A DNA stretch of 40,622 bases, taken from assembly GCA_001725415.1 (NCBI GenBank), contig MEGH01000003.1:63547-104168 (forward strand), given 5' to 3'. The notes under the pieces are model-generated. The model was given only the letters and a program-made list of their open reading frames with translations, was not told where the DNA came from and did no database searches. Positions 8,165 to 26,015 of this stretch are shown in pieces; position 1 is the stretch's first letter; every line of letters starts with the position of its first letter. A program made the position numbers and the translations under genes. Source of the DNA: Pseudonocardia sp. SCN 73-27. Its GTDB lineage: Bacteria; Actinomycetota; Actinomycetes; Mycobacteriales; Pseudonocardiaceae.

Positions 8165-8184
8165 GGGAGTCCTCTCGGGGGAAG

Positions 8185-9507: not shown

Positions 9508-9609
9508 CGTCGGGCCTCCTCGTCCTGTCCCCGCGTCGTTCCCGCGGCGCGGCGTTGCTCCGGTCGGCGTACCGGGGTCGGTCGCCCTACGCTGCGCCAC
9601 GCTACTGAC

Positions 9610-9623
9610 AACTGTCAACAGTT
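9610..9623. promoter_or_regulatory. Predicted GntR operator, site A1
   Basis: AACTGTCAACAGTT is a palindrome apart from its two central bases. It lies 103 nt upstream of the first gene of operon A and contains TTGACA when read on the minus strand. The identical 14-mer recurs at 13690-13703 and with one change at 24160-24173. The GT-N2-AC core agrees with the general FCD-type GntR operator pattern. Confidence 0.75.
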
Positions 9624-9675
9624 TGGCGTAGATTGACCGGTAACCAAGTCGACACGGCAGCTCAGTAGCGTTTCC

Positions 9676-9689
9676 ACTTGTCGACAGTT
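9676..9689. promoter_or_regulatory. Predicted GntR operator, site A2 (variant)
   Basis: ACTTGTCGACAGTT keeps the perfect 8-bp core TGTCGACA and the right half-site ACAGTT of the other sites. Its left arm is degenerate. Its centre is 66 bp from site A1, and it lies between that site and the regulator gene, as expected for autoregulation or cooperative binding. Confidence 0.55.
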
Positions 9690-9835
9690 TGTAATCGACG
9701 ACGGTCCGCCGGGCGTTCGACGCTCCGATCGGATCGGCGACCGAGGGAGGTCGCGCGTACGTGCGAAAGAGTGTCCGTGAGGCCACGTGGCACCATGACG
9801 GAGCGGGTCGCAGCCACCCGAGGCGAGGAGAACCC

Positions 9836-10513
9836 GTGAGCGAGCAGACCCGACCGCCGAAGCTGGGCCGAGTCGCGACCTATGCGGGCCAGAGCCTCGA
9901 GGTGCTGCGGGGCATGATCCTCGACGGCACGCTCGCCCCCGCGGAGCGCATCAACGAGGTACACCTGTCGCAGGCGCTCGGCATCAGCCGCGGCCCCCTG
10001 CGCGAGGCGATCCAGCGCCTCGCCAGCGAAGGGCTCGTCGAGGCCGTCCCGCACCGCGGCGTCTACGTCCGGTCGTTCTCCGCGCGCGAGCTCTCGGATC
10101 TCTACGAGCTGCGCGTCGCGCTCGAGACCCACGCCGTGCGCCTCGCCGCCCGCTACGCGCCCCAGCAGCGCATCGACGAGCTGGGCAGCATGCTCGACGA
10201 GACCGAGTCCAGCATGGGCTCGGCCAGCGGCGCCTACCCCGAGGACCCCGACTTCCACGCCCGGCTCGCCCGGCTCGCGGCCAACCCGCCGCTGGTCGAG
10301 GCGCTGACCGACGTCGGCCGCAAGATCCGGCTCGCCCGCGCCCGCTCGGCCCACCAGCCCCGCCGCGCCCGCACCGCTCTCGACGAGCACCGCGAGATCC
10401 TCGCCGCGCTCGTCGCCCGCGACGGTGAGGGTGCCGCCGCGAAGCTGGAGGCGCACCTGACCAGCTCGCTCAACAACGCCCTCGCGGTCCTGCGCGCGGC
10501 CGAACCGGACTGA
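9836..10513 (+). CDS. GntR family transcriptional regulator, FCD (FadR-type) subfamily
   Basis: The 225-residue regulator has an N-terminal winged helix-turn-helix (about 15-80; RINEVHLSQALGISRGPLRE forms the recognition region and GLVEAVPHRGVYV the wing). An all-helical FCD ligand domain follows (about 88-215) with candidate metal or ligand residues D139, H141, H185 and H207. FCD regulators usually bind small carboxylates and act as repressors released by effector. The GTG at 9836 follows GCGAGGAG with a 6-nt gap; a longer frame from 9761 lacks such a site and adds unconserved residues. It is the only regulator in the island and the natural candidate for the AACTGT-NN-ACAGTT sites. Confidence 0.92.
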   Translation: MSEQTRPPKLGRVATYAGQSLEVLRGMILDGTLAPAERINEVHLSQALGISRGPLREAIQRLASEGLVEAVPHRGVYVRSFSARELSDLYELRVALETHAVRLAARYAPQQRIDELGSMLDETESSMGSASGAYPEDPDFHARLARLAANPPLVEALTDVGRKIRLARARSAHQPRRARTALDEHREILAALVARDGEGAAAKLEAHLTSSLNNALAVLRAAEPD

Positions 10514-10562
10514 GCGCACCCCGTCACCGAACGAACGGCAATCCCGCCCGGAGCACGCGAAC

Positions 10563-10611
10563 ACACGACGGCCCTTTCCCGCGGTCCAGTTGCCGGAAAG
10601 GGCCGTTCGTG
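10563..10611. terminator. Bidirectional hairpin terminator
   Basis: ACGGCCCTTTCC at 10568-10579 pairs perfectly with 10595-10606 around a 15-nt loop, and the stem extends outward with one bulge. It sits between the converging ends of the GntR gene (10513) and operon B (10630). Confidence 0.75.
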
Positions 10612-10629
10612 CAATTCGGGGAGCGGCGG

Positions 10630-11337
10630 TCAGCCCGCCTTCGCGGGGACGTCCGCCAGCTTGGCGAGCAGCGCGTCGGTCGTCATGACGTCGGCGTACT
10701 TCTGCGCCATGTCGAACAGGTTGGCCTCGTGCACGACCGGGCTGCGGTCGTAGACGGCGTCGGCCGGCACGCTGACGCGGAAGTTGTACGAGAACGCGTC
10801 GGCCACGCTGGAGCGCACGCAGCCCGAGGTCGTGCAGCCGGTGACGACGAGCGAGTCGGCACCCGTCTCCACCAGGTAGCTCGCCAGCGGGGTGCCGAAG
10901 AAGGCGCTGGGGTGCCGCTTGGGGACGAGCACGTCGCCCTCGACCGGCGCGACGTCGGCGACGAACTCGTAGCCCTTGGCCGGGATGCCCATGATCGCGG
11001 GGACCTTGGCGCCGAGGCGTCCGGTGTCGTAGGACTGCTTGGGCGCGACGTGCGGGTAGACGATCGGCCAGCCCTTCTCGCGGAAGACCGCGACGAGCCG
11101 GGCGATGTGCGCGACGGCGTCCCAGCCGACGTCACCACAGCTGGTCGGATACTCCTGGACGGCCTCGTCGAACGGCATCGGCGTGGTGCCGACGGTGCGG
11201 TACTGCACATCGATGATCAGCAGCGCGGGCCGCGAGCCCATGCCGACGGGCCTGCCGAAGCCGGCCTTGTCGTAGCGCGCGATCGTCGCGTCGTCGATGA
11301 CCCCGGCGCCGCCGAGGGCCCAGATCGGGTCGGTCAC
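10630..11337 (-). CDS. Isochorismatase-like cysteine hydrolase (carbamoyl/half-amide amidase candidate)
   Basis: The 235-residue protein carries the cysteine-hydrolase triad of the isochorismatase-like superfamily: D43 in LLIIDVQ, K140 in VPKRHPSAF and C173 in TTSGCVRSS. A cis-peptide-type VTG turn precedes the nucleophile. Relatives include N-carbamoylsarcosine amidase, maleamate amidohydrolase, ureidoacrylate amidohydrolase and biuret hydrolase, all of which release ammonia from open-chain amides or carbamoyl groups. The GTG at 11337 overlaps the stop of the upstream hydantoinase-like gene (GTGA). A ring-opening amidohydrolase coupled to this enzyme is the classical two-step order for cyclic amides, imides or hydantoins. 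The exact substrate is not readable. Confidence 0.88.
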   Translation of the reverse strand: MTDPIWALGGAGVIDDATIARYDKAGFGRPVGMGSRPALLIIDVQYRTVGTTPMPFDEAVQEYPTSCGDVGWDAVAHIARLVAVFREKGWPIVYPHVAPKQSYDTGRLGAKVPAIMGIPAKGYEFVADVAPVEGDVLVPKRHPSAFFGTPLASYLVETGADSLVVTGCTTSGCVRSSVADAFSYNFRVSVPADAVYDRSPVVHEANLFDMAQKYADVMTTDALLAKLADVPAKAG

Positions 11338-12740
11338 ACGAGCTCCTTCTGGGAGGCGAGCGCCGCGGCGCCGCCGTTGGTGCGGGACAGGTAGGTGCCC
11401 GTCGGGGAGTCGGCGAGCTGCCCGTCGCGGACGGCGAACTTCCCGCGGACGATCGTGTGCACGACGGAGCACGGCAGCTCGGTACCCTCCCACGGCGAGT
11501 ACTCGGCGACGGAGTGCTGGGTCTCGGCGCGCACCGTCATCGGCGTGTCGAGGTCGAGGACGGCGAGGTCGGCGTCGGAGCCGACGCGGATCGTCCCCTT
11601 GCGCGGGAAGAGCCCGAACAGCTGGGCGGCCCGGGTGCTGGTGGCCTCGACGAGACGCTCCAGGTCGATGCCGCGCTTCAGGCCGAGGCCGATGGTGGTC
11701 GGCAGGATGAGGCCGGTGCCGGGGAAGCCCGCGGACGCCGTCCAGATGTCCTTCTCCTTCGCCGTGCGGTGGCGGGAGTTGTGGTCGGACCCGACGGTGT
11801 CGACCTTGCCCGTGCGCAGGCCCTCCCAGAGCGCCTCGACGTCCTCGGTGTGCCGGATGGGCGGGTTGACCTTGCCGTAGGTGCCGCAGTCGGCGTCCGT
11901 GGTCAGGGTCAGGTACTGGGTGCAGGTCTCGGTGAACAGGTTGGGGTAGGCGGTCTGCTGCATGGCCATCGCGTCGAGCGCGGCCTTGCTGGAGGTGTGC
12001 ACCGCGTACACCGAGGCACCGGTCTGGCTGGCGAAGTAGGCGACGCGCTGCACGGCCTCGGCCTCGACGACCGGCGGGCGGCTGCGGTACCAGGCCTCCA
12101 GCGGCGGCAGTGTCTCGTCGCGGGGCTGCTCGCGCAGCTTCCAGACGAGCTCGATGTTCTCCGGGTGCGGGCAGACGAGCGCGCCGGCGTCGGCGGCCTT
12201 GCCGAGCAGGTTGTACATGTAGGCGTCGTCGTTGCCGGGCAGGCCGAGGTACTTGCCCTCCTCGCCGCGGAAGTTCATGAAGAACTTGAAGCTGGGGACG
12301 CCCAGCTCGCGGACGTAGTCCGGGATGGACTCGACCTGGTCGTCGGTGCCGAGGACGAAGTGGAAGCCGTAGTCGGTGTGGGAGTTGCCGGCCATGGCGG
12401 CGTCGGACTCCGCGAACACCTTCTCGTAGGGGTCGGCGCTCATCAGGTAGACGAGCATCGACGTGACGCCACCGGCGACGGCCGAGGCGGTCTCGCGCTC
12501 GCCGTCCTCGGGGTCGCGCGGGACGCGGATGTCCTTGCCCAGGTGCACGTGCGGGTCGATGCCGCCGGGCAGGACGACCTTGCCGGTGATGTCCACCTCG
12601 GACGCCGCGGCGACGGTCGCGCCGCGCGCCACCAGGCCCGAGACGACGCCGTCGGTGACCAGGATGTCGAGGTCCTGCAGGCCGGCGCCGTGCTGGAAGA
12701 CGCGCCCGCCGACCAGCCTCAGATCGTGTACCTCGCTCAT
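11334..12740 (-). CDS. Dihydropyrimidinase/hydantoinase-like cyclic amidohydrolase
   Basis: The 468-residue amidohydrolase has the full binuclear-metal set of the dihydropyrimidinase/allantoinase group. H64 and H66 lie in DPHVH, the carboxylated-lysine candidate is K152 in PSFKFFMN, then H192, H248 in VHTSSKAAL, and D319 in GSDHNS. Such enzymes open cyclic amides (dihydropyrimidines, hydantoins, imides, allantoin). The substrate loop after D319 (RHRTAKEKDIW) differs from the usual dihydropyrimidinase wording, so specificity may differ. ATG at 12740 overlaps the stop of the upstream lyase gene (ATGA). In operon B it is placed between a C-C lyase and an amidase. Confidence 0.9.
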   Translation of the reverse strand: MSEVHDLRLVGGRVFQHGAGLQDLDILVTDGVVSGLVARGATVAAASEVDITGKVVLPGGIDPHVHLGKDIRVPRDPEDGERETASAVAGGVTSMLVYLMSADPYEKVFAESDAAMAGNSHTDYGFHFVLGTDDQVESIPDYVRELGVPSFKFFMNFRGEEGKYLGLPGNDDAYMYNLLGKAADAGALVCPHPENIELVWKLREQPRDETLPPLEAWYRSRPPVVEAEAVQRVAYFASQTGASVYAVHTSSKAALDAMAMQQTAYPNLFTETCTQYLTLTTDADCGTYGKVNPPIRHTEDVEALWEGLRTGKVDTVGSDHNSRHRTAKEKDIWTASAGFPGTGLILPTTIGLGLKRGIDLERLVEATSTRAAQLFGLFPRKGTIRVGSDADLAVLDLDTPMTVRAETQHSVAEYSPWEGTELPCSVVHTIVRGKFAVRDGQLADSPTGTYLSRTNGGAAALASQKELV

Positions 12741-13630
12741 CGCGCGCGCCTCCGTTCCGCGGTCGCTGCGTACCGCTCCTCCAGCTCGTCGAACTCGGGC
12801 TTGCGCACGAGCGACTGCCGGTCCTCCCAGCTGATCATCAGGCGGCCCGCCTCGAGCGTGTCGCCGTGCTTGTCCAGGTGGGCGAGCACCTCGCGCATCC
12901 CGACCACCGCGCCGCGCATCGTCGCGTTCGCGTAGAGCGCCACGGCGAAGCCCAGCTCCTGCAGTGTGCGCCGCGGCAGCACCGGGGTGCGACCGCCCTC
13001 CACCATGTTGGCGACGTGCAGGCCGGGGACGTTCTCGGTGATGTAGCGCATCTCGTCGAGGTTCTCGGGGGCCTCGACGAACAGGACGTCGGCGCCGGCC
13101 TCGCTGTAGGCCTGCATCCGTTCGCAGGCGGCCTCGAGGCCTTCGGTGGCGCGGGCATCGGTGCGGGCGACGATGACGAGGTCGTCGTCGCGGCGGGCGT
13201 CGACGGCGGCGCGGACCTTGCCGACCATCTCGCCGACCGAGATGACGTCCTTGCCCGCGAAGTGACCGCACTTCTTGGGGCTGACCTGGTCCTCGAGCTG
13301 GATGCCGGAGGCTCCGGCCCGCTCGAGGCGGCGGACGGTGCGCTGCACGTTGAGGGCGTTGCCGAAGCCGGTGTCGGCGTCGACGACGACGGGGATGCCG
13401 ACGACGTCGCACATCGCCTCGACGTGCCCGCAGAGCTCGTCGAGGGTGAGGATGCCGTGGTCGGGCATGCCGAGGTAGGTGTTGGTGACGCCCGCGCCGG
13501 TCACGTAGACGGCGCCGAAGCCTGCCTCCTCCACGACGCGCGCCGTGAGTGCGTTGGCGGCACCGGGCAGCATCAGCGGCCGGTCCTGCGCCCCGAGGAG
13601 GGTGCGCAGGGTTCGTGCCGGGCTGGTCAT
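12737..13630 (-). CDS. Isocitrate lyase/PEP mutase family lyase
   Basis: The 297-residue TIM-barrel protein belongs to the ICL/PEPM superfamily (methylisocitrate lyase PrpB, 2,3-dimethylmalate lyase, oxaloacetate decarboxylase, carboxyphosphonoenolpyruvate mutase). Metal-binding acidic residues are visible at D84 and D86 (VVVDADTGFG) and E113. The lyase loop signature KKCGH is at 119-123, with the catalytic Cys that marks C-C lyases rather than phosphonomutases. It is the first gene of operon B; GGAGG lies five bases before the ATG and operator B lies 60 nt upstream. It probably cleaves a 2-hydroxy- or 2-alkyl-dicarboxylate, giving pyruvate or glyoxylate; the product is inferred. Confidence 0.9.
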   Translation of the reverse strand: MTSPARTLRTLLGAQDRPLMLPGAANALTARVVEEAGFGAVYVTGAGVTNTYLGMPDHGILTLDELCGHVEAMCDVVGIPVVVDADTGFGNALNVQRTVRRLERAGASGIQLEDQVSPKKCGHFAGKDVISVGEMVGKVRAAVDARRDDDLVIVARTDARATEGLEAACERMQAYSEAGADVLFVEAPENLDEMRYITENVPGLHVANMVEGGRTPVLPRRTLQELGFAVALYANATMRGAVVGMREVLAHLDKHGDTLEAGRLMISWEDRQSLVRKPEFDELEERYAATAERRRAR

Positions 13631-13689
13631 CGAACCTCCAGGAGGTCGTTAGGTCGTGCAACTGCATTCATCGTGAAACGCAAACTGCC

Positions 13690-13703
13690 AACTGTCAACA
13701 GTT
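13690..13703. promoter_or_regulatory. Predicted GntR operator, site B
   Basis: This is the same 14-mer as site A1 (AACTGTCAACAGTT), here inside a 20-bp near-perfect palindrome, 13687-13706 (outer arms GCC/GGC). It lies 60 nt upstream of the lyase gene that opens operon B. On the minus strand it contains TTGACA at 13698-13693. A weak -10 candidate CACGAT follows after 17 nt. Confidence 0.78.
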
Positions 13704-13727
13704 GGCGGTTGAGCGACGCCATCCTGG

Positions 13728-14492
13728 TCAACTCGGCACCCGCGCGAGCAGGCCGCCGTCGACGAGGATCGACGTCCCCGTGACGAACGACGCCTCCGCC
13801 GAGCACAGGAACGCGACCGCACCGGCGACGTCGGCCGGGGTCCCCATGCGCCCCAACGGCGCCGCCGACGCCGCACCCGCCGAGGCGGCGTCCGGGTCGG
13901 GCTGGGCGTCGAAGAAGCCCTGCAGGTTCGGCGTCAGGATGAAGCCAGGGCACACCGCGTTGACCCGGATGCCGACGGGCGCGCCGTCGAGCGCCATCGC
14001 CTTGGTCATCGCGAGCACCGCGCCCTTCGACGCGACGTACGCGGCGTCGGCCGGGAAGCCCGCGAAGGACGCCGTCGAGCCGACGAGCACGACCGATCCC
14101 CCGCCGGCGGCGACCATCGCGGGCCAGAGGTGCCGGTTGAGGCTGTAGATGCTGGTGAGGTTGACATCGATCTGCTGGTGCCACTGCGCGGGCGTCAGCT
14201 GGTCGAGCGCTCCGACGACGGTCATGCCCGCGGCGTGCACCACGACGTCGGGCTGTCCGGTCCGTTCGATCAGGCCCGGCAGGGCGGCGTCGACGGCGTC
14301 GGCGTCGGCCGCGTCGAACGCCGCGGTCACGGCGTTCGGGCCGCACTCCTCGGCGGCCTCGGCAAGGCGCTTCTCGTCACGGCCCAGCAGGACGACGGTG
14401 GCACCGCCGGCGGCGAGCCGGACGGCGGCACCGCGGCCGATGCCGGAGCTCGCCCCGGACACGTAGGCGATCCGGGTATCAGCGGGGGTCAT
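13728..14492 (-). CDS. Short-chain dehydrogenase/reductase (last gene of operon C)
   Basis: The 254-residue classical SDR has a cofactor motif SGASSGIG at 12-19 (Ser in place of the usual Thr), an NAG-equivalent HAAG near 86-89, and the catalytic triad S139, Y152 and K156 (YVASK). The residue after strand 2 is R38 (LLGRD), which favours NADP(H). The tail ends with a VDGG motif. ATG at 14492 overlaps the stop of the upstream SDR (ATGA). It probably interconverts a ketone and a secondary alcohol within the catabolic route. The substrate is unknown. Confidence 0.9.
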   Translation of the reverse strand: MTPADTRIAYVSGASSGIGRGAAVRLAAGGATVVLLGRDEKRLAEAAEECGPNAVTAAFDAADADAVDAALPGLIERTGQPDVVVHAAGMTVVGALDQLTPAQWHQQIDVNLTSIYSLNRHLWPAMVAAGGGSVVLVGSTASFAGFPADAAYVASKGAVLAMTKAMALDGAPVGIRVNAVCPGFILTPNLQGFFDAQPDPDAASAGAASAAPLGRMGTPADVAGAVAFLCSAEASFVTGTSILVDGGLLARVPS

Positions 14493-15226
14493 GACGGCGC
14501 TCCCATGGGCAGGGCGGGCTCGCCGGCGGTCCAGCCGCCGTCGACGGGCATGACGACCCCGGTGACTGCCGAGGCGGCCGACGAGGCGAGGAACGCGATG
14601 ACCGAGCCGATCTCCTCGGGCTCGAACATGCGGCCCATCGGGACCCGTCGCGAGACGGCGGCGTCGAGCTCGGGGGTCATCTGCTGCTTGGCCATCGGGG
14701 TGAGCGTGAAGCCGGGGCAGACCGCGTTGACGCGGACGCCGGCGGCCGCCCAGTCGATCGCCATCGAGCGGGTCAGCGCCGCGACGGCACCCTTGGACGC
14801 CGAGTAGGCGGACTGATGCGGCAGGCACACCAGCGCGGCCTGCGAGGCGACGTTGACGACCGCGCCCTTCGAGGAGACGAGCGCGCCGTGCAGCGCCTGC
14901 GACGCGTTCACGATCCCGCCGACGTTGACCTCGTAGGTGCGCAGGAAGTCGGCCGGGGAGGTCTCCTCCATCGGCAGGTTCTCGGTGATGATCCCGGCGC
15001 AGTTGACCAGGGCGTCGACGCGGCCGTGCTCGGCGACGACCGCCTCGGCCGCGGCCTTGGTCGCGGCGGGGTCGGTGAGGTCGAGCGGGCCGGCCTCCTT
15101 GGTCCCGGACAGGTCCCAGCCGACGACGGTGGCGCCCTGGGCGCGGAACACCTCGACGGTGGACGCACCGATGCCGGAGGCGGCGCCGGTCACGACGACG
15201 ACGCGGCCGTCGAACGGGGTGCTCAT
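14489..15226 (-). CDS. Short-chain dehydrogenase/reductase
   Basis: The 245-residue classical SDR carries TGAASGIG at 13-20, NCAG near 75, and the catalytic S128, Y141 and K145 (YSASK). D38 at the end of strand 2 favours NAD(H), so it is probably an oxidising dehydrogenase, in contrast with the downstream NADP-type SDR. The ATG at 15226 overlaps the end of the OYE gene (ATGA). Paired SDRs with different apparent cofactor preference can serve two hydroxyl or keto positions or epimerise one; that is inference. Confidence 0.9.
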   Translation of the reverse strand: MSTPFDGRVVVVTGAASGIGASTVEVFRAQGATVVGWDLSGTKEAGPLDLTDPAATKAAAEAVVAEHGRVDALVNCAGIITENLPMEETSPADFLRTYEVNVGGIVNASQALHGALVSSKGAVVNVASQAALVCLPHQSAYSASKGAVAALTRSMAIDWAAAGVRVNAVCPGFTLTPMAKQQMTPELDAAVSRRVPMGRMFEPEEIGSVIAFLASSAASAVTGVVMPVDGGWTAGEPALPMGAPS

Positions 15227-16335
15227 GAGCTGCTCCTCGGGGTGGGCTCGGGATGGGTGTGTGCGGGGTAGTCGACGTAGCCGCGCTCGCCCGCGGTGAA
15301 GAACGTCGACTCGTCCCACTCCGCGCGGGGCAGGCCGTGGCGCCAGCGCGCGACGAGGTCGGGGTTGGAGATGAACAGCCGGCCGACGCTGACGAGGTCG
15401 GCGTGCCCCTCGGCGACCAGCGGGGCGACGTCGTCGAGCTCGCTGGCGCCCATGAACCCGGTGTTGAGGACATAGGTCGTCGGCCAGAGCGCGCGCAGCT
15501 GCTCGTGCAGCGGCGACGAGCGACGCCGCAGCGTGTGCAGGTAGGCGGGCCGCAGCGGCGCGACGGCCTCGACGAGCGCGACGTAGGTGTCGTCGTTGCC
15601 CTTGTCGGACATGTCGTTGAACTGGCCGCCGGGCGAGATGCGGATGCCGACCCGATCGGCGCCGATCGCGTCCGCGACCGCGGTCGTCACCTCGGCGACG
15701 AACCGCGCCCGGTTCTGCGGGCTCCCGCCCCACCTGTCGGTGCGGCGGTTCGTGCCCGGCGAGAGGAACTGGTGCAGCAGGTAGCCGTTGGCGGCGTGCA
15801 GCTCGACCCCGTCGAGCCCGGCCCGGACGGCGCGGGTGGCGGCGCTCGCGAAGTCCTCGACGATCCGGGCGATGCCGGCGTCGTCGAGCTCGACCGGGAC
15901 CGGCGCGGGCACCATGGTCCGGTCGGCGGTCTCCACCTCGATGTCCGCCGCCACCGCGCTGGGGGCGACGACGCGCGCGTCGGCGGGGATGTGGCTCTGG
16001 TGGCCGATCCGGCCGGTGTGCATGAGCTGGCAGAAGATGCGTCCGCCTGCGGCGTGGACGGCGTCGGCGACCCGCGCCCAGGCCGCCTCCTGCGCATCGC
16101 TGTGGATGCCGGGGGTGCCCGGGTAGCCCTTGCCCGCGGCGCTGGGCTGGGTGCCCTCGGTGACGATCAGCCCTGCCCCGGCACGCTGCGCGTAGTAGGT
16201 CGCGGCGTAGTCGGGCAGGACGCCGTCGTCGTCGGCGCGGTTGCGGGTCATGGGGGCCATGACGACGCGGTTGGCCAGCTCGCAGCGACCCAGCTTCCAG
16301 GGGTCGAAGACGGCGGCGGGCTCAGGCGCTGACAT
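15223..16335 (-). CDS. NADH:flavin oxidoreductase, Old Yellow Enzyme family
   Basis: The 370-residue FMN TIM-barrel ene-reductase has the classical OYE segment from H180 and N183 (substrate-carbonyl binding pair) with the proton donor Y185 in HAANGYLLHQFL. It continues to the NRRTDRWGGS motif. MAPMTRNRA near residue 26 is the FMN-side threonine region, and SVGRLFISNP near the end completes the phosphate site. OYEs reduce activated C=C bonds of enones, maleimides, nitro compounds and some N-heterocycles. Its 5' end overlaps the ALDH stop by 14 nt, so it is co-translated within operon C. It probably saturates a conjugated intermediate before ring opening; that step is inferred. Confidence 0.93.
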   Translation of the reverse strand: MSAPEPAAVFDPWKLGRCELANRVVMAPMTRNRADDDGVLPDYAATYYAQRAGAGLIVTEGTQPSAAGKGYPGTPGIHSDAQEAAWARVADAVHAAGGRIFCQLMHTGRIGHQSHIPADARVVAPSAVAADIEVETADRTMVPAPVPVELDDAGIARIVEDFASAATRAVRAGLDGVELHAANGYLLHQFLSPGTNRRTDRWGGSPQNRARFVAEVTTAVADAIGADRVGIRISPGGQFNDMSDKGNDDTYVALVEAVAPLRPAYLHTLRRRSSPLHEQLRALWPTTYVLNTGFMGASELDDVAPLVAEGHADLVSVGRLFISNPDLVARWRHGLPRAEWDESTFFTAGERGYVDYPAHTHPEPTPRSSS

Positions 16336-17809
16336 CGACGCAGACCGTCTTGACGTCGGTGTAGTCGTGCAGCACCTCGTGGCCCATCTCGCGGCCCCAG
16401 CCCGACTCCTTCATGCCGCCGAACGGCATGCTGGGGTCGAAGACGCCGTAGGTGTTGACCCACACCGTCCCGGCCTGCAACCGTGCCGCGACGCGGTGCG
16501 CGCGGCCGACGTCGCGGGTCCAGATGCCGGCCGACAGCCCGTAGCGGGTGTCGTTGGCGGCGCGGACGACCTCGGCCTCGTCGGTGAAGCGGTGCGCGAC
16601 GACGACCGGCCCGAAGATCTCCTCCGTGGTGACACGGGAGTCGGGCGCGGTGTCGGCGATGACCGTCGGCTCCACGAAGTAGCCACGGTCGCCGACCCTG
16701 CCACCGCCGGTGAGGACGGTGCCCTCGGTGGCGCCGACGGCGAGGTAGTTGCTGACACGGTCGAAGTGTTCACGGCTGGCGAGCGGACCGATCTGGCTGG
16801 CGGGGTCGAACCCGTCGCCGACCACGATGGCGCGCGCCTTCTCGACCAGGCCGGCGACGAACTCGTCGTAGACGCTGTCGTGGACGTAGAGCCGCGAACC
16901 CGCCGCGCACGCCTGACCGGCGTTGAAGAAGATCGCGTCGGACGAGCCGCCGATCGCCTTGTCGAGGTCGGCGTCGCCGAACACGACGTTGGCGGACTTG
17001 CCGCCCAGCTCGAGGGTGACGCGCTTGAGGTTGCCGCCGGCGGCGTCGAGGATCCGCCGCCCCGTGGCGGTGGAGCCGGTGAACGACACCTTGTCGACGC
17101 CCGGGTGCGCCGACAGCGCAGCGCCGACCGTCGAGCCGTAGCCGTTGACGACGTTGAGCACGCCCGGCGGGATGCCCGCCTCCAGCGCGAGGTGCGCGAG
17201 CCGCAGCGCCGACAGCGGGGTGGCCTCGGCCGGCTTGAGGACGACGGTGTTGCCCGCGGCGAGCGCCGGCGCGACCTTCCACGACGTGATGACCAGCGGG
17301 AAGTTCCACGGCACGATCAGCCCGACGACGCCGAGCGGCTCGCGCCGGGTGTAGGTGAGGAACTCCCCCGGCGCCGAGATCGGGATGGTCTCGCCCTCGA
17401 TCTTCGTGGCGTGGCCGGACATGTAGTGGAACAGCCCGGCCGCCGAGGGGACGTCCGCGGCCTGCGCGATCGCGTACGGCTTGCCCTGGTCGAGGGTCTC
17501 GACGCGGCCCATCTCGGCGGCGTCGGCCAGGATCAGGTCACCGAGGCGCCACAGCGCGGCGGCCCGTTCGCGCGGGGTCATCCGCGGCCACGGGCCTTCC
17601 TCGAAGGCCTTCCGCGCGGCGGCGACGGCGCGGTCGACGTCGGCGGCCTCGCCGAGCGCCACCCGCGCGAACACCTCACCGGTCGCGGGGTTGACGGTGT
17701 CGAGCTCACCGCCGCCCAGGGCGTCCACCCACTCGCCCCCGACGTGGAGACGGGTGTGCTCGACCGGCCGGGAGGCGAGAGCGGCCGGGTTCTCGGTCAC
17801 TGCAGTCAT
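16322..17809 (-). CDS. Aldehyde dehydrogenase (NAD(P)+-dependent)
   Basis: The 495-residue ALDH has a complete active site: N169 in PWNF, E267 in LELGGKS and the nucleophile C301 in [13 protein letters not shown] near 243 is the cofactor loop, and [15 protein letters not shown] lies near the C-terminus. The ATG at 17809 follows GAGAAGGA. It lies 13 nt after the NDMA-type alcohol dehydrogenase, so the pair should convert a primary alcohol through an aldehyde to a carboxylate. Sequence style is close to betaine/phenylacetaldehyde-type ALDHs, but substrate cannot be read directly. Confidence 0.94.
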
Positions 17810-17822
17810 GGATCCTTCTCGA

Positions 17823-18935
17823 TCAGTGCTGGTGGACCAGGACGCCGCGGATGTTGCGGCCGGCGTGCATGTCGGCGACGGCCTCGTTGATCTGGTCGAG
17901 CGGGTAGCGCCGGGTGACGAGCTCGTCGAGGCGCAGGACACCGCTGCGGTACAGCTCCAGCAGGCCCGGGATGTCGGCGGTGGGGTTGCAGTCGCCGTAC
18001 ATCACGCCCTTGAGCGACTTCGCGAAGTTGGTGAGGTCCTGCGGGCTGATCGCGATGTGGCGGTCGGACGCGCCGACCGACACGAGAACGCAGCGCCCGG
18101 CCTTGCCAACGGCGGCGAAGACGTCGCCGATGATGTCGCCGTCGACGCGGCCGACGGTCACGATGCCGACGTTGACGCCCTGGCCGTTGGTGAGCTGGTC
18201 GATCAGCGGCCGGGCCTCGGCGATGGTGCCGAACGCGGCGGTGGCGCCGAAGTCCTCGGCCCGCTCCTGCTTGTACGGCACGGGGTCGACGACGATGACG
18301 TGCGCGGCACCGGCGATCCGGGCGCCCTGCACGGCGTTGGCACCGACGCCGCCGAGACCCGCGACGAGCACGACGTCACCGGGACGGACGGGGCCCGCGT
18401 TGACCGCGGCACCGAAGCCGGTGGCCACGCCGCACGAGACGAGGCAGGCCAGCTCGAACGGGATGTCGTCGGGGACCTTGACGGCCTGGTTCTCGTGGCA
18501 GACGAGCCGGTCGGCGAACGTGCCGAGCCGGGTCACGCCGCCCACGTCGGAACCGTCGGCGGCGTGGAAGCGGGCGGTGCCGTCCATCGCGCGACCGTGC
18601 TCCATGCCGGCGCCGTTGTCGCAGATGTACTGCTGGCCGCGGGCGCAGTAGCGGCACTTGCCGCAGGCCGGGATGAACAGCGTCGCGACGTGGTCACCCA
18701 CGGCCACCTTGGTGACGCCGGGGCCGACGGCCTCGACGATGCCGGCGCCCTCGTGCCCGCCGACCATCGGCAGCGTGACCGCGAGGTCACCGGTCACGAA
18801 GTGATCGTCGGAGTGGCACAGCCCCGAGGCCATCACCTTGACGCGGATCTCGTGGTCGCGCGGCTCGTCGAGCTCGAGGTCCTCGACCTCCCACTGACCG
18901 CCGACCGTGTGGATGACGGCTCCACGTACCTTCAT
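17823..18935 (-). CDS. NDMA-dependent (mycofactocin-associated) zinc alcohol dehydrogenase
   Basis: The 370-residue MDR alcohol dehydrogenase has catalytic zinc ligands C40, H61 and C168. The structural zinc cluster is C91, C94, C97 and C105 (C-x2-C-x2-C-x7-C), and a GLGGVG Rossmann motif is at 193-198. Overall sequence, with GQQYICDNGAGMEHGRAMDGT, matches the actinobacterial nicotinoprotein alcohol dehydrogenases. In these, NAD stays bound and electrons leave through an external acceptor, in vivo the redox peptide mycofactocin, in vitro N,N-dimethyl-4-nitrosoaniline. It is the first step of the alcohol-aldehyde-acid pair with the ALDH. GGAG lies eight bases before the ATG. Confidence 0.92.
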   Translation of the reverse strand: MKVRGAVIHTVGGQWEVEDLELDEPRDHEIRVKVMASGLCHSDDHFVTGDLAVTLPMVGGHEGAGIVEAVGPGVTKVAVGDHVATLFIPACGKCRYCARGQQYICDNGAGMEHGRAMDGTARFHAADGSDVGGVTRLGTFADRLVCHENQAVKVPDDIPFELACLVSCGVATGFGAAVNAGPVRPGDVVLVAGLGGVGANAVQGARIAGAAHVIVVDPVPYKQERAEDFGATAAFGTIAEARPLIDQLTNGQGVNVGIVTVGRVDGDIIGDVFAAVGKAGRCVLVSVGASDRHIAISPQDLTNFAKSLKGVMYGDCNPTADIPGLLELYRSGVLRLDELVTRRYPLDQINEAVADMHAGRNIRGVLVHQH

Positions 18936-18971
18936 GCGTTCTGCTCCTGTTCGGGCTGCGACGGCGACACG

Positions 18972-20036
18972 TCAGGCCGGGTCGGCGGCCTCGGCCCGCC
19001 GCTTGCGCTCGCCGCGGTTGCGGACGAGCTTGGAGAGGATCACGGCGATGACCAGCGCGCCGCCGTAGAACAACTGCTGGACGTACTGCTCGGCACCGAG
19101 CAGCTGCAGGCCGGTGATGCCGGTGACCAGGAAGTACACCGCGATCAACGTGCCCCACGGGTTGAACCGGCCGATGCGCAGCACGGTCGAGCCGAGGAAG
19201 CACGCCGCGAACGCGGGCAGCAGGAACGCCGCGCCCGAGACGGGGTCGGCGCTCGCGGTGGTGCCGGCGTAGACGACGCCGGCGAGACCGGCGAAGCCCG
19301 CGGAGATGATGAGCGCGCGCCAGCGCAACGCGGGGACGTTGACACCGTTGAGCCGGGCGACGTCGTGGCTCTGCCCGATGAACAGCAGGCGCTGGCCGAA
19401 CGCGGTCTTGTCGAAGACGTACCAGGCGACCGCGACGAGCACGATCGCGTAGTAGAAGCCGACCGGGATGCCCAGGAAGGGCCGGGTGAGCACCGCCGAC
19501 GACAGCGCCCGGTCGATGCCGCTGATCGTCGACGTGTTGGACAGCAGGTAGACCAGGCCCTGCACGACCGTGCCCATGCCCAGGGTCACGATGAACGGGT
19601 TGATGTCGAAGACCGTGACGACGAAGCCGTTGACCACCCCGACCAGCAGGCTGGCGACGATCGCGACGAGCACCGTGAGCCAGATGTTCCAGCCGTGCTG
19701 CACATTGAGGATGGCGACGACGACCGTCGACAGGTTCAGCGTGGACGCGACCGACAGGTCGTAGTCGCCGGCCCGCAGCGGGTAGAGCAGGCCGATCGCC
19801 AGGATCAGCAGCACGACCTGCGACGACAGCATGTTGGAGACGTTCGCCGCGGTGGGGAACGTCTGCGGCACGATCAGGCTGAACGCGACGATCAGCACCG
19901 CCCAGACGCCGATGAGCGCGAACCGCTCCGGCTCGGCGGATGCCTTGCGCTTCTTCCCGCCGGTCGAGGTGCCGCCGCCCGGTGTGGGTGTCATGGGGTC
20001 GGCCTTCGTCCCGGCTTCGGAGTGGGTGGTGTTCAC
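18972..20036 (-). CDS. CUT2-type sugar ABC transporter permease (RbsC-like)
   Basis: The 354-residue permease has an N-terminal cytoplasmic stretch of about 45 residues and then eight to ten hydrophobic helices of the BPD_transp_2 fold. GDYDLSVASTLNLST and NPFIVTLGMGTVVQGL are characteristic of RbsC/XylH-like subunits. The GTG at 20036 overlaps the ATPase stop (GTGA); a later ATG at 19994 is possible, but the coupled start is preferred. It forms the membrane channel of the importer with the ATPase and the lipoprotein encoded just upstream. A Lys/Arg-rich tail ends the protein. Confidence 0.9.
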   Translation of the reverse strand: MNTTHSEAGTKADPMTPTPGGGTSTGGKKRKASAEPERFALIGVWAVLIVAFSLIVPQTFPTAANVSNMLSSQVVLLILAIGLLYPLRAGDYDLSVASTLNLSTVVVAILNVQHGWNIWLTVLVAIVASLLVGVVNGFVVTVFDINPFIVTLGMGTVVQGLVYLLSNTSTISGIDRALSSAVLTRPFLGIPVGFYYAIVLVAVAWYVFDKTAFGQRLLFIGQSHDVARLNGVNVPALRWRALIISAGFAGLAGVVYAGTTASADPVSGAAFLLPAFAACFLGSTVLRIGRFNPWGTLIAVYFLVTGITGLQLLGAEQYVQQLFYGGALVIAVILSKLVRNRGERKRRAEAADPA

Positions 20037-21571
20037 GACGCTTCCTCCGCGTAGACGGCGGACGCCAGTACGTCCTTGGTGATGTCCGATCCGGTGACCT
20101 CGGCGCTGATCCGGCCACCGTCGAGCACGACGACCCGGTCGGCCATCTCGACGAGCTGCTCGTAGTCCGAGGTCGCGCACAGCACGGCCATGCCGTGGGC
20201 GACGGCGGAGCGGATGAGCGTGAAGATCTCGCGGCGGGCGCCGATGTCGACGCCCTGGGTGGGCTCTGCCAGCAGCATGACCTGCGGGTTCGTGTCCATC
20301 CACTTGCCCAGCAGCGCCTTCTGCTGGTTCCCGCCGGACAGGTGCCCGAACAGGGCGTGCGGGTTGGCCGGGATCACGTTGAGCCGTTCGCAGGTGTCCT
20401 GCGCGCGGCGGTCCAGGCTCTTCCAGTCGACGAGCAGGCCACCGGCCCGCTCGGTCAGGAACGGCAGGGACACGTTCTCCAGGACCGACAGGCCCAACGC
20501 CCCGCCCTGGCCCTTGCGGTCGGCGGGGATCAGCACGACGCCGGCGTCCATCGACCGGGCCGGCGTCGGCTTGGCGACGACCGTGCCGCCGTGCTCGATC
20601 CGCCCGGCGGTGGCGTGCCGGGCCCCGAAGAGCAGGTCGGGCAGCTCCTCGAAGCCCGAGCCGGCCAGCCCGGTGACGCCGACGACCTCGCCCGCGTGCA
20701 GGTCCAGGTCGAGGTCGCGGACCCGGGTCCCGGACAGCCCGCGCGCGCTGAGCAGCGCGGGCCGGTCCGAGCGCACCGTGGCGGCACCCTTGGCGACGTG
20801 CTCGTCGTGGGCACCGAGGATCAGCTGCACGAGGTCGTCGCGGGTGGAACCCTGCGTGGCGCGGGTGCCGGCGGTGCGCCCGTTGCGGAACACCGTGACC
20901 CGGTCGGTGACCTCGAGGATCTCGTCGAGGTCGTGCGAGACGAGCAGCACGGCGTCGCCCCGCTCCCGCAGCCGCCGGAGCAGCGCGAACAGCAGGCCCA
21001 CCTCGTGCCGCGGCAGGAACACCGTCGGCTCGTCGAGGATGAGGATCTGCCCGCCGGTCGCGCTGCCCGAGGTGAGCTCCTGGGAGCCCACCGCGCGGAC
21101 GACCGCCACCATCGCGCGCTGCACGGGCGAGAGGGTGTCGATCGTGACGTCCGGGTCGACGTCGATCTCGAAGCGGTCGAGCAGCTCGGTCACCCGGGCC
21201 CGCTCGGCCTTCCACCTGATCCGGCGACGCCCGGGGGCATCGCCGTTCGAGTCCAGTGCCATGTGTTCGAGCACGGTGGACGTGCCGGCCAGGCCCAGGT
21301 CCTGGTGGACGAACCCGAGGCCGTGGTCGCGCAGACCACGGGCCCCGAACGGGCCGGCCACCGTGGTCCCGCCGACGGTGACGGTGCCGCCGTCGGCGTC
21401 ATGGAACCCGGCCAGGATCTTGATCAGTGTGGACTTGCCGGAGCCGTTGGCCCCGAGGAGCCCGTGGACCTCGCCGGGCAGGACGTCGAGGTCGACCCCG
21501 CGCAGCGCAGGGACGCCGTTGAACGCCTTGGCGAGCCCGGTCACGGCCAGCAGCGGCGCGGGGGCGGTCAT
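20033..21571 (-). CDS. CUT2-type sugar ABC transporter ATP-binding protein (RbsA-like, two NBDs)
   Basis: The 512-residue protein carries two ABC domains in tandem. The first has Walker A GANGSGKST near 36-44 and Walker B ILDEPT near 175. The second is degenerate at Walker A (GLAGSG, lacking the GKST) but keeps the signature LSGGNQQKALLGKW, followed by LLAEPTQGVDIG. This pattern is normal for RbsA-like ATPases, where one site is catalytically weak. It overlaps the stop of the binding-protein gene by one base (TGATG). It powers uptake of a sugar-like or polyol-like solute. Confidence 0.92.
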   Translation of the reverse strand: MTAPAPLLAVTGLAKAFNGVPALRGVDLDVLPGEVHGLLGANGSGKSTLIKILAGFHDADGGTVTVGGTTVAGPFGARGLRDHGLGFVHQDLGLAGTSTVLEHMALDSNGDAPGRRRIRWKAERARVTELLDRFEIDVDPDVTIDTLSPVQRAMVAVVRAVGSQELTSGSATGGQILILDEPTVFLPRHEVGLLFALLRRLRERGDAVLLVSHDLDEILEVTDRVTVFRNGRTAGTRATQGSTRDDLVQLILGAHDEHVAKGAATVRSDRPALLSARGLSGTRVRDLDLDLHAGEVVGVTGLAGSGFEELPDLLFGARHATAGRIEHGGTVVAKPTPARSMDAGVVLIPADRKGQGGALGLSVLENVSLPFLTERAGGLLVDWKSLDRRAQDTCERLNVIPANPHALFGHLSGGNQQKALLGKWMDTNPQVMLLAEPTQGVDIGARREIFTLIRSAVAHGMAVLCATSDYEQLVEMADRVVVLDGGRISAEVTGSDITKDVLASAVYAEEAS

Positions 21572-22722
21572 CAGCCCAGGCCCCAGAGCTTCATGAACGC
21601 GCCGGCGTAGGTGTCACCGAAGCCCTTGCCGCTCTGCGGCGGGTTGCCGGTCTCCGCGACGTTGGACTTGTCGATGACGCGCACCGGGCCCGACTCCGCC
21701 GGGACGGGCGGGGCGCCCAGCATCGCGCGGAACGCGACGTCGATGTTGACGTACGCGACCCAGTCCGGGTTCTCCGCGACGTCCATCGCGACGGTGCCGT
21801 CCTGGACCATCTTCAGGATCGAGGGCGTGCCGTTGAACGTGTAGATCGGGACCTCACGGCCACCGGCGGCCTGCTGGATGCCGGGCGCGGCGTAGAGGGC
21901 CATCGAGTCGTAGATCGGCAGGACGGCGTTGATGTTCGGGTTCTTCAGCAGCGCCGACTGGACCTGGCTCTGGATCTGCTGCGACCACTGCGGCACCGCG
22001 ACGTTGATGACGGTGGCGTCCGAACCCGCGGGGCCCTCGTCGGCCAGCGCCTTCTGGATGGTGTCGACCATGCCCTTGGACGGGCCGGTCTCCGACGCCT
22101 GGATGACCAGGGCGTGGATCGGGGTGCCCTTGGCTGCGCCGATCGCGTTCAGCGTCATCAGGTGCGCGGCCTCGTTGAACGGCGCGAACGCCTCGTACTT
22201 GAGGCCGGTGTTCGGCGGGGTGTCCTTGTCCGACAGGTGCAGCGGGATGACCGGGACGCCGGCCTTCGTCGCGTCGTCGATCTGCGGGCCCAGCGTCGAG
22301 GGCAGCGGGCCGTTGAGCAGGATCGCGCCGGCCTTCGCGTTGATGGCCTGGGCGATGCCCTGCTGGTAGGAGGTCTGGGTGCCGTCGGACGGGAACGTCA
22401 CGAAGCCGACGCCGGCCTTCTCCGCGACGATCTTCATCGCGGCCTCGCCCGCCTGGTAGAACTCGGCCTTGCTGTCGATCGGGATGCTGTAGATCGTCTT
22501 GCCCTTGAGGGAGCTGACGTCGATCGCGGGGCCCAGGTCCTCGGTGCCGGGGATGGCCTTGGCGGCGTCGACCTTCTGCTGGGCCGCCTGGGCCTTCTGG
22601 GTGTCGGCGGCCGAGGCGCTGGAGCTACCGCTGTCGGTCCCGCCGCTGCCACCGCCACAGCCGGCCAACAGGCCGAGTGATGTCGCGGCGACCACCGCGA
22701 CGACGATCTTCGAGATGCGCAT
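21571..22722 (-). CDS. Sugar-type ABC transporter substrate-binding lipoprotein
   Basis: The 383-residue protein begins with a lipoprotein signal peptide (basic MRISK, hydrophobic core, lipobox LLAGC). A Gly/Ser-rich tether follows and then a periplasmic-binding-protein type 1 fold of the CUT2 group (Peripla_BP_4). YSIPIDSKAEFYQ and the GAILLNGPL region mark the fold. The ATG at 22722 follows GGAGAG with a 6-nt gap; upstream in-frame codons to 22824 do not encode a signal peptide. It is the extracytoplasmic receptor of the importer. A large hairpin separates it from the upstream MBL gene. Confidence 0.92.
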   Translation of the reverse strand: MRISKIVVAVVAATSLGLLAGCGGGSGGTDSGSSSASAADTQKAQAAQQKVDAAKAIPGTEDLGPAIDVSSLKGKTIYSIPIDSKAEFYQAGEAAMKIVAEKAGVGFVTFPSDGTQTSYQQGIAQAINAKAGAILLNGPLPSTLGPQIDDATKAGVPVIPLHLSDKDTPPNTGLKYEAFAPFNEAAHLMTLNAIGAAKGTPIHALVIQASETGPSKGMVDTIQKALADEGPAGSDATVINVAVPQWSQQIQSQVQSALLKNPNINAVLPIYDSMALYAAPGIQQAAGGREVPIYTFNGTPSILKMVQDGTVAMDVAENPDWVAYVNIDVAFRAMLGAPPVPAESGPVRVIDKSNVAETGNPPQSGKGFGDTYAGAFMKLWGLG

Positions 22723-22771
22723 GGATGACTCTCCGAGAGGGGATGCCGGCGTACCGGGGGTGAACTGGGCG

Positions 22772-22820
22772 GGAGGGTGCTGAAGGGGGCCGGCCGGGCC
22801 CGCCCCCTTCAGCTCCCTCC
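22772..22820. terminator. Long intercistronic hairpin inside operon C
   Basis: GCTGAAGGGGGC (22779-22790) pairs perfectly with 22802-22813. After one T-T mismatch, six more pairs continue (22772-22777 with 22815-22820). The 11-nt loop is GC-rich and no T-run follows on the minus strand. It begins directly after the MBL stop and may act as a partial terminator or an mRNA processing/stability barrier before the binding-protein gene. Confidence 0.6.
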
Positions 22821-23684
22821 TCAACGCGTGGCGAGATCGGGCCGCTCGACGAGGTCGTCGTAGATGCGGGCGACCGACCGTCGCTGGAACATCTCGATGA
22901 GGTCGTCGGGGTAGCCGACGTAGTCCTCGGTGTCGACGTGGATGTTGTCCGCGAACCGGATCTCCGCGGCTGCCTGCTCGCTGTCCTCACCGCGGCCGAT
23001 CGCCGCGGCCACCTGGCCGACCACCTCGCGCCCCCACTCGCGATAGCGGTCCAGGACCGCACGGTCGGCCACCTCGCCGTGCCCGGGGACGAGCACGGAG
23101 AAGTCGTACGACGAGACCTTCTCGATCGCGTCGAACCAGTCCCACAACCGCGAGTCCTGGAACGACGGGAGCCCCGCCTCGCAGACGATGTCGCCGGTGA
23201 AGACGACCCCGTCCTCGGGGAGGTAGGCGATCAGGCTGTTGGCCGTGTGCCCCGGCTGGAAGGTCAGTTCGAGGTGCGCGTCGCCCAGGTGCAGGTCGAG
23301 CCGGTCGGAGAAGACGACCTCGGGGACGCGCACCCGGTACCCGGCCAGCAGCGGGACCGCCTCGGGATCGATGCGGTCGAACAGCCGGGCCAGGTAGTCG
23401 TGGTCGGGCGCCTCGTTGAGGAGGCGTTCCCGGGTGCCGCGATGGGAGACGACCTCGCCGCCCATCCAGAAGTTGCCGATCGTGTGGTCGGGGTGGTGGT
23501 CGGTGTTGATCACGAACCGGGTGCGGCCGAAGCCGTCGACCACCGTGCGCCACGCGATGGCGTCGGTCGGTTTGTGCGGTGTGTCCACCAGCGCCACGCC
23601 GTCGGCGCCTGCGATGATCGAGTTGTTGCTGCCGAGGTGCGCGGTCTCGACGTGGACGTGCGCGCTGACCTGCTGCAGCGTCAC
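22821..23684 (-). CDS. MBL-fold metallo-hydrolase with altered metal motif
   Basis: The 287-residue hydrolase has the metallo-beta-lactamase fold. The metal motif reads D62-H63-H64-P65-D66-H67, so the first His of the usual HxHxDH is replaced by Asp. The remaining ligands are present: H146 in QPGHTANS, D165 in FTGDIVCE and H202 in VPGHGE. The family includes lactonases, glyoxalase II-like thioesterases and cyclases. ATG at 23684 overlaps the cupin stop (ATGA). Its place at the head of operon C suggests hydrolysis of a lactone or thioester intermediate; this is inference. Confidence 0.88.
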   Translation of the reverse strand: MTLQQVSAHVHVETAHLGSNNSIIAGADGVALVDTPHKPTDAIAWRTVVDGFGRTRFVINTDHHPDHTIGNFWMGGEVVSHRGTRERLLNEAPDHDYLARLFDRIDPEAVPLLAGYRVRVPEVVFSDRLDLHLGDAHLELTFQPGHTANSLIAYLPEDGVVFTGDIVCEAGLPSFQDSRLWDWFDAIEKVSSYDFSVLVPGHGEVADRAVLDRYREWGREVVGQVAAAIGRGEDSEQAAAEIRFADNIHVDTEDYVGYPDDLIEMFQRRSVARIYDDLVERPDLATR

Positions 23685-24070
23685 CGGTTCTCCTCGGTTC
23701 CCGCGGGGTCGGGCATCGACGCGCCGCCGAGGAAGCCCAGGAGGTTCTCGATGCGGGTCGGGGCGAAGATCTCCACGAAGGTGGCCTCGCCCTCGATGCT
23801 GTGGCCGGAGTGCACCACGTCACGCGGGATGACGCAGACGTCGCCCTCGGAGAGCACCGTCTCCTCGCCGCCGACGGTGAACGCGATGCGGCCGCTGGTG
23901 ACGACCATCGTCTGTTCCGCGTCGGGATGGGTGTGCGCCGGCAGCGTGGTGGGGTGGACCCACCGGATGCGGTTGACGCCCATCTCCTTGCCGGTCACGG
24001 CGGTGCGGAAGTTCCCGGGCAGGACCTCCCGTTCCGGCAGGTCCGACCAGCTGGCCCAGTAACCGGGCAT
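23681..24070 (-). CDS. Small cupin-domain protein (first gene of operon C)
   Basis: The 129-residue single-domain cupin has motif 1 with H46, H48 and E52 (HTHPDAEQ) and motif 2 ending in H87 (IPRDVVHSGH). This gives the 3-His/1-Glu metal site. Cupins of this size are isomerases, dioxygenases or carboxylate-binding proteins, and the sequence does not decide which. The ATG at 24070 has GAAGGGGA upstream. The promoter candidate TTGACA-18-TAGCGT and operator C lie about 70-105 nt upstream. Confidence 0.85.
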   Translation of the reverse strand: MPGYWASWSDLPEREVLPGNFRTAVTGKEMGVNRIRWVHPTTLPAHTHPDAEQTMVVTSGRIAFTVGGEETVLSEGDVCVIPRDVVHSGHSIEGEATFVEIFAPTRIENLLGFLGGASMPDPAGTEENR

Positions 24071-24138
24071 GCCGCGTCACCGTCCCCTTCGACTGTCGTG
24101 AATGCACCGGTCGGCGGGCGATCCGGGCTTGGCGAGAG

Positions 24139-24173
24139 ACGCTAGAGGCCCCCGCTGAAAACTGTCAACAGTC
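24139..24173 (-). promoter_or_regulatory. Operon C promoter with GntR operator, site C (24160-24173)
   Basis: The operator reads AACTGTCAACAGTC on the plus strand, one base different from sites A1 and B. On the minus strand it supplies a perfect TTGACA -35 box (24168-24163). An 18-nt spacer separates this from TAGCGT (24144-24139). Transcription would start near 24132, about 60 nt before the cupin ATG. A bound repressor would block the -35 element directly. Confidence 0.7.
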
Positions 24174-26007: not shown

Positions 26008-26015
26008 CCAACCCT

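Follow-up and report, generated by a model that had tools for sequence, protein, structure and literature searches.

According to the sections of PMC4494728 compared here, regulators of the FadR (FCD) subfamily of the GntR family bind palindromic operators in which GT and AC boxes lie 2–3 nt apart (consensus TKGT/ACMA); a weaker additional half-site, 7–12 nt from the centre, is known for many GntR groups (13 groups in the FadR subfamily), and double-site divergons have been described as well. The locus analyzed in this study lies in a 40,622-bp stretch of the genome of Pseudonocardia sp. SCN 73-27 (contig MEGH01000003.1, positions 63,547 to 104,168; hereafter, the window). It contains a gntR gene (9836..10513, plus strand) encoding a 225-amino-acid GntR regulator with an FCD effector domain, and three minus-strand operons, designated A (2661..9507, five genes), B (10630..13630, three genes) and C (13728..24070, ten genes). 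Very probably, this regulator acts as a repressor encoded within the catabolic regulon of three operons that it controls; it would repress itself and be released by a metabolite, with operons A and B as the core and operon C as an accessory part. The island resembles the FadR subfamily, as far as those sections describe it, in the pair of protein domains, in a palindromic operator whose GT and AC are separated by two bases, in an additional CAG arm outside the palindrome, and in the two sites found in its divergent gap. Unlike the subfamily, it has the half-site CTGT, one base off TKGT, and an operator that, in front of three operons, is apparently fused with the −35 box, and its set of regulated enzymes is not described in the sections compared. 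Local regulons of FCD-type GntR proteins are a well-known kind of system, but the operator letters and enzyme set of this one were not found among the literature matches listed: no description of such a gene cluster is present among the matches listed (judged by title and beginning of the abstract), and neither operator 14-mer occurs among the listed open-licence PMC matches (ranked by number of strings matched).

The solved structure nearest to the window GntR is 7xp0 (113.9 bits), which we take to be PmiR of Pseudomonas aeruginosa. PmiR reportedly, going by the title of a 2022 report by Cui et al., senses 2-methylisocitrate, the substrate of the enzyme family to which the lyase of operon B belongs. 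The island is unlike PmiR in having no citrate-synthase-type gene among the genes scanned, and amide-hydrolysing enzymes instead. The PrpD and PrpB enzymes of the 2-methylcitrate cycle, as well as the tricarballylate dehydrogenase TcuA, come from the same families as those of the island, but the latter score below the curated cut-offs (289 vs. 354.4 bits for PrpB, 32.1 vs. 950 for PrpD, and 137.9 vs. 369 for TcuA). Thus, given the absence of a citrate-synthase-type gene from the scanned set and PrpB and PrpD relatives below equivalog level, the island does not match a 2-methylcitrate cycle regulon of the PmiR/PrpR type.

Operator sites and promoter geometry

The original prediction, made from the letters of the window, held that a 14-nt motif, AACTGTCAACAGTT, ties the three operons and gntR into a single regulon. 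All of the copies were found where it had placed them. The motif is exact at 9610–9623 and 13690–13703, occurs with one change at 24160–24173, and has a variant with the core TGTCGACA at 9676–9689 (letters ACTTGTCGACAGTT), which differs from it by three mismatches. Together with the CAG arm, site 1 (9605..9623), site 2 (13685..13703) and site 3 (24155..24173), all on the minus strand, fall in the putative promoters of operons A, B and C, respectively. Their distances to the start codons are 102 nt (start at 9507), 59 nt (13630) and 89 nt (24070); the original prediction gave 60–103 nt. The weaker variant, site 1b (9676..9689, plus strand), is a presumed autorepression site and was placed by alignment of the gntR leaders. 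Site 3 may also be read in a register moved by 7 nt, which aligns to site 2 too; that register was rejected, as the one centred on TTGACA is common to all of the relatives.

Allowing up to three mismatches to the 14-mer, the window yielded 11 matches when those on either strand and in overlapping registers are all counted; 100 dinucleotide shuffles averaged 0.27 matches, and none had more than two. In the whole 6.95-Mb genome, ACTGTNNACAGT occurs exactly at three places, all within the window (reversed-pattern control, two per strand), and AACTGTCAACAGTT at two, both of which are again in the window. With one change, AACTGTCAACAGTT was found at two further places, namely at 24160 of the window and on another contig (C34), within an open reading frame 627 codons long that, judged by eye, resembles an amidohydrolase. 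At up to three mismatches, 32 forward matches stood against 30 in the reversed-pattern control, which is noise; therefore, only matches with no change or one change are informative, and site 1b could not be called from the genome scan alone. A profile built from 26 distinct sites recovered the three promoters with E-values of 4.7e-8, 2.5e-7 and 2.5e-6, the next match being the reverse face of site 3 (E-value, 0.18). No further profile match at E < 1e-5 was found elsewhere in the genome among the 150 of 383 first-look candidates that were scored, a depth at which a weak site may be missed. The shuffles, the genome scan with its control and the profile scan agree that recurrence of the 14-mer by chance is unlikely, as had been claimed, and the genome and profile scans, together with the order-wide scan described below, rule it out. 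The many unrelated genome-wide matches that would speak against a local regulon did not appear.

The operator is longer than the quoted 14-mer, and its conserved pattern reads ACTGTTGACAGTT-NN-CAG. The 12 core bases, ACTGTTGACAGT, are invariant in all 26 distinct sites, partly by construction, since the sites were selected by the core. The CAG arm, four positions beyond the core, played no part in that selection and is kept in 25, 26 and 25 of the 26 sites at its three positions. The 26 distinct sites derive from 29 rows; two loci, L032 and L065, duplicate L031 and L064 and were therefore excluded from the site alignment and from the count of −10 boxes. The arm belongs to an already known type of feature, since additional half-sites are described in the compared sections of PMC4494728. 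By eye, site 3 of Nocardia carnea is a near-perfect palindrome across about 30 bp.

The centre of the operator, CTGT-TG-ACAG, is asymmetric and holds TTGACA on one strand only. At all 29 operon sites (the 26 distinct sites plus three from Methylobacterium), the strand with TTGACA is the one that codes for the operon. A YAnnnT box follows it at 17 bp (13 sites) or 18 bp (eight sites), 21 of 29 altogether, while the other spacings from 8 to 69 gave zero or one match each. The fit differs among the sites: 9/9 for site 1, 8/8 for site 3, 4/9 for site 2 and 0/3 for Methylobacterium. In the window, the −35 box and the −10-like box are TTGACA (9613–9618) and CAGCGT (9589–9594) with 18-bp spacing at site 1, TTGACA (13693–13698) and CACGAT (13670–13675) with 17-bp spacing at site 2, and TTGACA (24163–24168) and TAGCGT (24139–24144) with 18-bp spacing at site 3. 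Based on the orientation of TTGACA and this spacing, it is likely that the operator covers the −35 box and part of the spacer, a place expected of a repressor. Site 1b begins 4 nt past the −10-like TAGCGT of gntR (9666–9671) and so would overlie the start of gntR transcription; a similar, putative TAnnnT-like box ahead of site 1b can be read off the alignment of the relatives. Two sites had been assigned to the front of gntR, and both do lie in the 9508–9835 gap, but they do not seem to be equivalent: the one at 9610 would serve as the −35 region of operon A, whereas the weaker one at 9676 sits at the presumed gntR start.

Conservation of the operator and its probable regulator

The gntR gene is found with the same neighbours, at 78–96% amino acid identity, in nine named relatives (five Pseudonocardia, one Prauserella, one Amycolatopsis and two Nocardia). 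The identity of the encoded proteins goes down to 67% at the lowest, and sites still stand before the same operons. All nine relatives have an exact site 1; site 2 is exact in eight of them and altered at one position in the remaining one. Site 3 occurs in all eight relatives that have a close ortholog of the cupin gene opening operon C, three copies being exact and five having one change relative to AACTGTNNACAGTT. Site 1b differs from AACTGTNNACAGTT by at most two mismatches in the loci L031–L034 and in genome G449, and is more degenerate in the window, Amycolatopsis and Nocardia. Gene comparison among the relatives was based on BLAST rows above 35% identity and covered loci other than L039–L044. 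In Prauserella (L034), the cupin was not found genome-wide, and the rest of operon C had no match above 35% identity within 10 kb beyond gntR. G449 likewise lacks operon C beside gntR and retains gntR and the other two operons; its site 2 is exact, and its sites 1 and 1b have one and two changes, respectively. As operon C is thus missing beside gntR in two of the 11 actinobacterial loci examined, both of which keep A, gntR, B and their sites, it is separable, leaving A, gntR and B as the core.

Scans of wider genome sets, with at most 47 (genus) and seven (order) candidates scored per genome, linked the motif to the regulator. Within the genus, the 14-mer was detected in eight of 62 genomes and a gntR ortholog in six, all of them among the eight; in the order-wide draw, the extended motif was present in eight of 397 genomes and gntR in four, again all among the eight. 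The amidohydrolase of operon B, at E ≤ 1e-110, was found in three of 396 genomes of a phylum-wide draw, which suggests that the pathway is rare.

In three Pseudonocardia records, operon C includes a second GntR homolog (about 36% identity with the main one), located behind the Old Yellow Enzyme gene (16408–17043 in L031 and L032; 16406–17023 in L033). An aldehyde dehydrogenase match at this place is absent in L031 and L032 and present in L033. Records L031 and L032 are NZ_JNYD01000002.1 (Pseudonocardia autotrophica) and NZ_BSFQ01000002.1 (P. halophobica); perhaps one of the names is wrong, or the two are the same strain.

A tblastn search of plasmids with the amidohydrolase returned six records, including three from Methylobacterium with a divergent GntR. 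In these three loci, the regulator is 44–45% identical to that of the window, and its gene diverges from one operon that carries all six core enzymes (lyase, 54–56% identity; isochorismatase, 70–71%; two PrpD proteins, 41–50%; flavoprotein, 53–54%; amidohydrolase, 44–45%) and also encodes a branched-chain-type ATP-binding cassette (ABC) importer. Between gntR and the operon, all three loci have an exact AACTGTTGACAGTT, which by its letters extends to the palindrome CAAACTGTTGACAGTTTG, and a partial copy, TTGACAGTTTGC, faces gntR in each of them. A Markov control of the three loci gave no exact match in 1.68 Mb. Four loci (21–41 kb each) with pathway genes and no GntR match at 1e-5 had no operator at up to two mismatches. 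Two of these are from Variovorax, including PBL-E5 (L110), and have an IclR gene; the Hydrogenophaga locus has a LysR gene, and the Novosphingobium locus (L111) came without annotation.

More distant GntR genes gave a mixed picture. In an Acidobacteria metagenome-assembled genome (MAG; L038), whose GntR is 38% identical, a perfect palindrome, TACTGTATACAGTA, ends at the candidate ATG of gntR; the neighbouring genes are mostly different, one amidohydrolase being among them. By eye, a Gemmatimonadetes MAG (L039) has a similar TATTGTATGCAGTA, also ending at a candidate ATG. In both (L038, 9923–12460; L039, 3566–6064), the distant GntR gene is followed by a PF00144 beta-lactamase family gene, with an amidohydrolase nearby. 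Perhaps these two loci belong to another regulon, distinct from the first, that is controlled by members of the same clade of regulators. No comparable ACTGT-NN-ACAGT palindrome was found ahead of the gntR match in L040–L044, and these loci were set aside.

The regulator and the regulon model

The gntR product exceeds the curated cut-offs of both PF00392 (E-value, 3.4e-15) and PF07729 (E-value, 2.5e-23) and, with both domains present, is a GntR family regulator of the FadR (FCD) subfamily. Among 10 aligned actinobacterial sequences, the helix-turn-helix segment SQALGISRGPLREAI is identical, and His141, His185 and His207 are invariant; by position, these three histidines probably correspond to the FCD metal site, with the HypR description in PMC6608401 as a guide. 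Compared with the FadR-subfamily consensus TKGT/ACMA, CTGT-TG-ACAG has a spacing of 2 nt and matches three of four box positions on each side. The Pfam scan of the genes from 2661 to 24070 brought up no other regulator, as had been expected from the open reading frames, and binding of GntR to the operator is strongly predicted.

In the proposed mechanism, a GntR dimer would bind ACTGTTGACAGTT-NN-CAG, the palindromic centre of which holds the −35 box of each operon, so that the bound repressor would keep RNA polymerase away from this box and from the beginning of the spacer. Through the weaker copy just past its −10-like box, gntR would be mildly autorepressed. The operator may be released when the FCD pocket takes up a carboxylate formed in the pathway, probably a malate or succinate with a substituent, of the 2-methylisocitrate type, whereupon the import and breakdown genes would be induced together. 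The core pathway encoded by A and B would comprise a cyclic amidohydrolase, a half-amide hydrolase, a flavoprotein dehydrogenase, two PrpD-family enzymes and a PrpB-like lyase, and operon C would act as an accessory feeding block. The uniqueness of the sites and the orthologous promoters, in which the sites precede the same operons across genera and phyla, support the predicted regulon of three operons and gntR joined by one operator. The further claim that the island is one catabolic system holds firmly for A and B, since their six enzymes are not separated even in Methylobacterium, but less so for the accessory operon C, given the two loci that lack it.

Several observations weigh against this model. 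The −10 match fails at five of the nine site-2 sequences and at all three Methylobacterium promoters, and site 1b is degenerate, so that its role is argued from position and from the relatives. Two genomes of the genus and four of the order have the motif, as a single match each, and no gntR. Related genomes are not independent, and several of those scanned are apparently the same records as the named loci, so that the tests overlap; L031 and L032 are identical over the full 20,678 bases compared. The enzyme set is incomplete in the four loci without GntR: the two from Variovorax have the flavoprotein and both PrpD relatives but no PrpB match, and those from Hydrogenophaga and Novosphingobium have only the amidohydrolase, PrpB-like lyase and isochorismatase. 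Moreover, a Mesorhizobium GntR of 43.5% identity, which stands apart from the pathway, has no operator site; thus, the motif does not accompany every GntR of that similarity.

If another regulator, encoded elsewhere, bound the palindrome, gntR would merely be one of its targets. The two sites flanking gntR do not prove that GntR binds them, and L031–L033 hold the second GntR homolog inside operon C. However, the motif tracks gntR over genomes and phyla and is absent from the pathway loci without GntR, three of which have an IclR or LysR gene adjoining; the GT-N2-AC spacing occurs in the FadR subfamily, according to the compared sections of PMC4494728, and no second GntR is present among the window genes scanned. 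This alternative is therefore considered improbable. GntR might instead activate these promoters, or both activate and repress them, in line with the ability of some FCD regulators to activate, which also counts against a pure repressor model; CitO, as described in the consulted part of PMC6608401, binds upstream of the −35 box. The operator of the island, on the other hand, holds the −35 hexamer and enters the spacer, where a bound protein should stand in the way of RNA polymerase, and the site at gntR is close to the presumed transcription start. Such an activating role is therefore considered improbable as well. Repression by the local GntR remains the preferred explanation.

Gene content and the possible pathway

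The genes inside each operon overlap or closely adjoin, and from this spacing they are likely to be co-transcribed. Operon A encodes, all on the minus strand, a major facilitator superfamily (MFS) transporter of the metabolite/H+ symporter type (8185–9507), an FAD_binding_2 flavoprotein (6788 to about 8140), a second MFS protein (5427 to about 6770) and two MmgE/PrpD proteins (4094–5434 and 2661–4097); here and below, "about" marks approximate starts, chosen where a long frame opens far upstream. Operon B (minus strand) encodes a PrpB-like lyase of the phosphoenolpyruvate mutase/isocitrate lyase family (12737–13630), a cyclic amidohydrolase of the hydantoinase type (11334–12740) and an isochorismatase-fold amidohydrolase (10630 to about 11250). 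The products of operon C (minus strand) are a cupin (23681–24070), a metallo-beta-lactamase fold protein (22821–23684), a sugar-type ABC importer (21571–22824, 20033–21571 and 18972 to about 20030), an N,N-dimethyl-4-nitrosoaniline (NDMA)-type alcohol dehydrogenase (17823–18935), an aldehyde dehydrogenase (16322 to about 17764), an Old Yellow Enzyme (15223–16335) and two short-chain dehydrogenases/reductases (14489–15226 and 13728 to about 14480). Past site 3, a distinct block of glycosyltransferase-type genes with GT2/GtrA, PMT and YkcB_C matches is located on the opposite strand (24429–29536, plus strand).

In the NCBIfam scan, the six-enzyme module reaches no specific curated model. The lyase has a KKCGH motif at residue 119 and scores highest with petal death protein, at 204.9 bits, and with 2-methylisocitrate lyases, at no more than 200; 2,3-dimethylmalate lyase reaches 170.6 bits. 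The amidohydrolase is nearest to D-hydantoinases and scores 270.7 bits against the dihydropyrimidinase/D-hydantoinase model (cut-off, 393.25). The isochorismatase-fold enzyme matches 3ot4/3uao with 115.8 bits, compared with 91.9 bits for N-carbamoylsarcosine amidohydrolase; 3uao is the maleamate amidohydrolase NicF, according to the part of PMC5806882 consulted. Its Variovorax relatives, about 59% identical, are found in plasmid operons together with xanthine-dehydrogenase-type and FAD monooxygenase genes (L107, 4176–10618; L108, 4159–10618). These operons look like an N-heterocycle degradation pathway, in which an enzyme that hydrolyses half-amides would have a natural place.

A reaction order of cyclic imide ring opening, loss of ammonia, dehydrogenation, hydration and carbon-carbon cleavage would be coherent. 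Tentatively, and with a rather low likelihood, operons A and B may encode a not yet described pathway acting on cyclic imides of substituted succinates or maleates, composed of a hydantoinase-type imidase, a NicF-like hydrolase, a TcuA-like flavoprotein, PrpD relatives and a PrpB-like lyase. In such a pathway, the imidase would open the ring, the NicF-like hydrolase would release ammonia, the flavoprotein would dehydrogenate, the PrpD relatives would hydrate or isomerise, and the lyase would cut a 2-methylisocitrate-like acid, to which the regulator would respond. Hematinic acid is a maleimide left from the oxidative breakdown of heme and chlorophyll. It would fit as a substrate, since ring opening and hydration would turn it into a one-carbon homologue of 2-methylisocitrate. 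The main rival, which concerns the substrate only and is compatible with the regulon, is degradation of a cyclic ureide (hydantoin or dihydropyrimidine) via an N-carbamoyl intermediate rather than of an imide via a half-amide. The closeness of the amidohydrolase to D-hydantoinases and the match of the isochorismatase-fold enzyme to N-carbamoylsarcosine amidohydrolase make this a realistic possibility, though not the expected outcome: the isochorismatase-fold enzyme scores higher with 3ot4/3uao, of which 3uao is NicF according to PMC5806882, and the PrpD-, PrpB- and tricarballylate-dehydrogenase-type partners, which are kept in Methylobacterium, indicate di- and tricarboxylate chemistry.

The operator letters have been kept between Actinomycetota and Alphaproteobacteria. 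The island is a clear case from nature in which an operator is, as it appears, fused to the −35 box, with its letters kept between two phyla while the regulator goes down to 44% identity. With its well-delimited operator and its candidate regulator, it also provides a ready-made induction assay for a six-enzyme module common to Actinomycetota and Alphaproteobacteria. Since the GntR protein should respond to a pathway intermediate, the regulator would offer a direct route to the substrate of the pathway.

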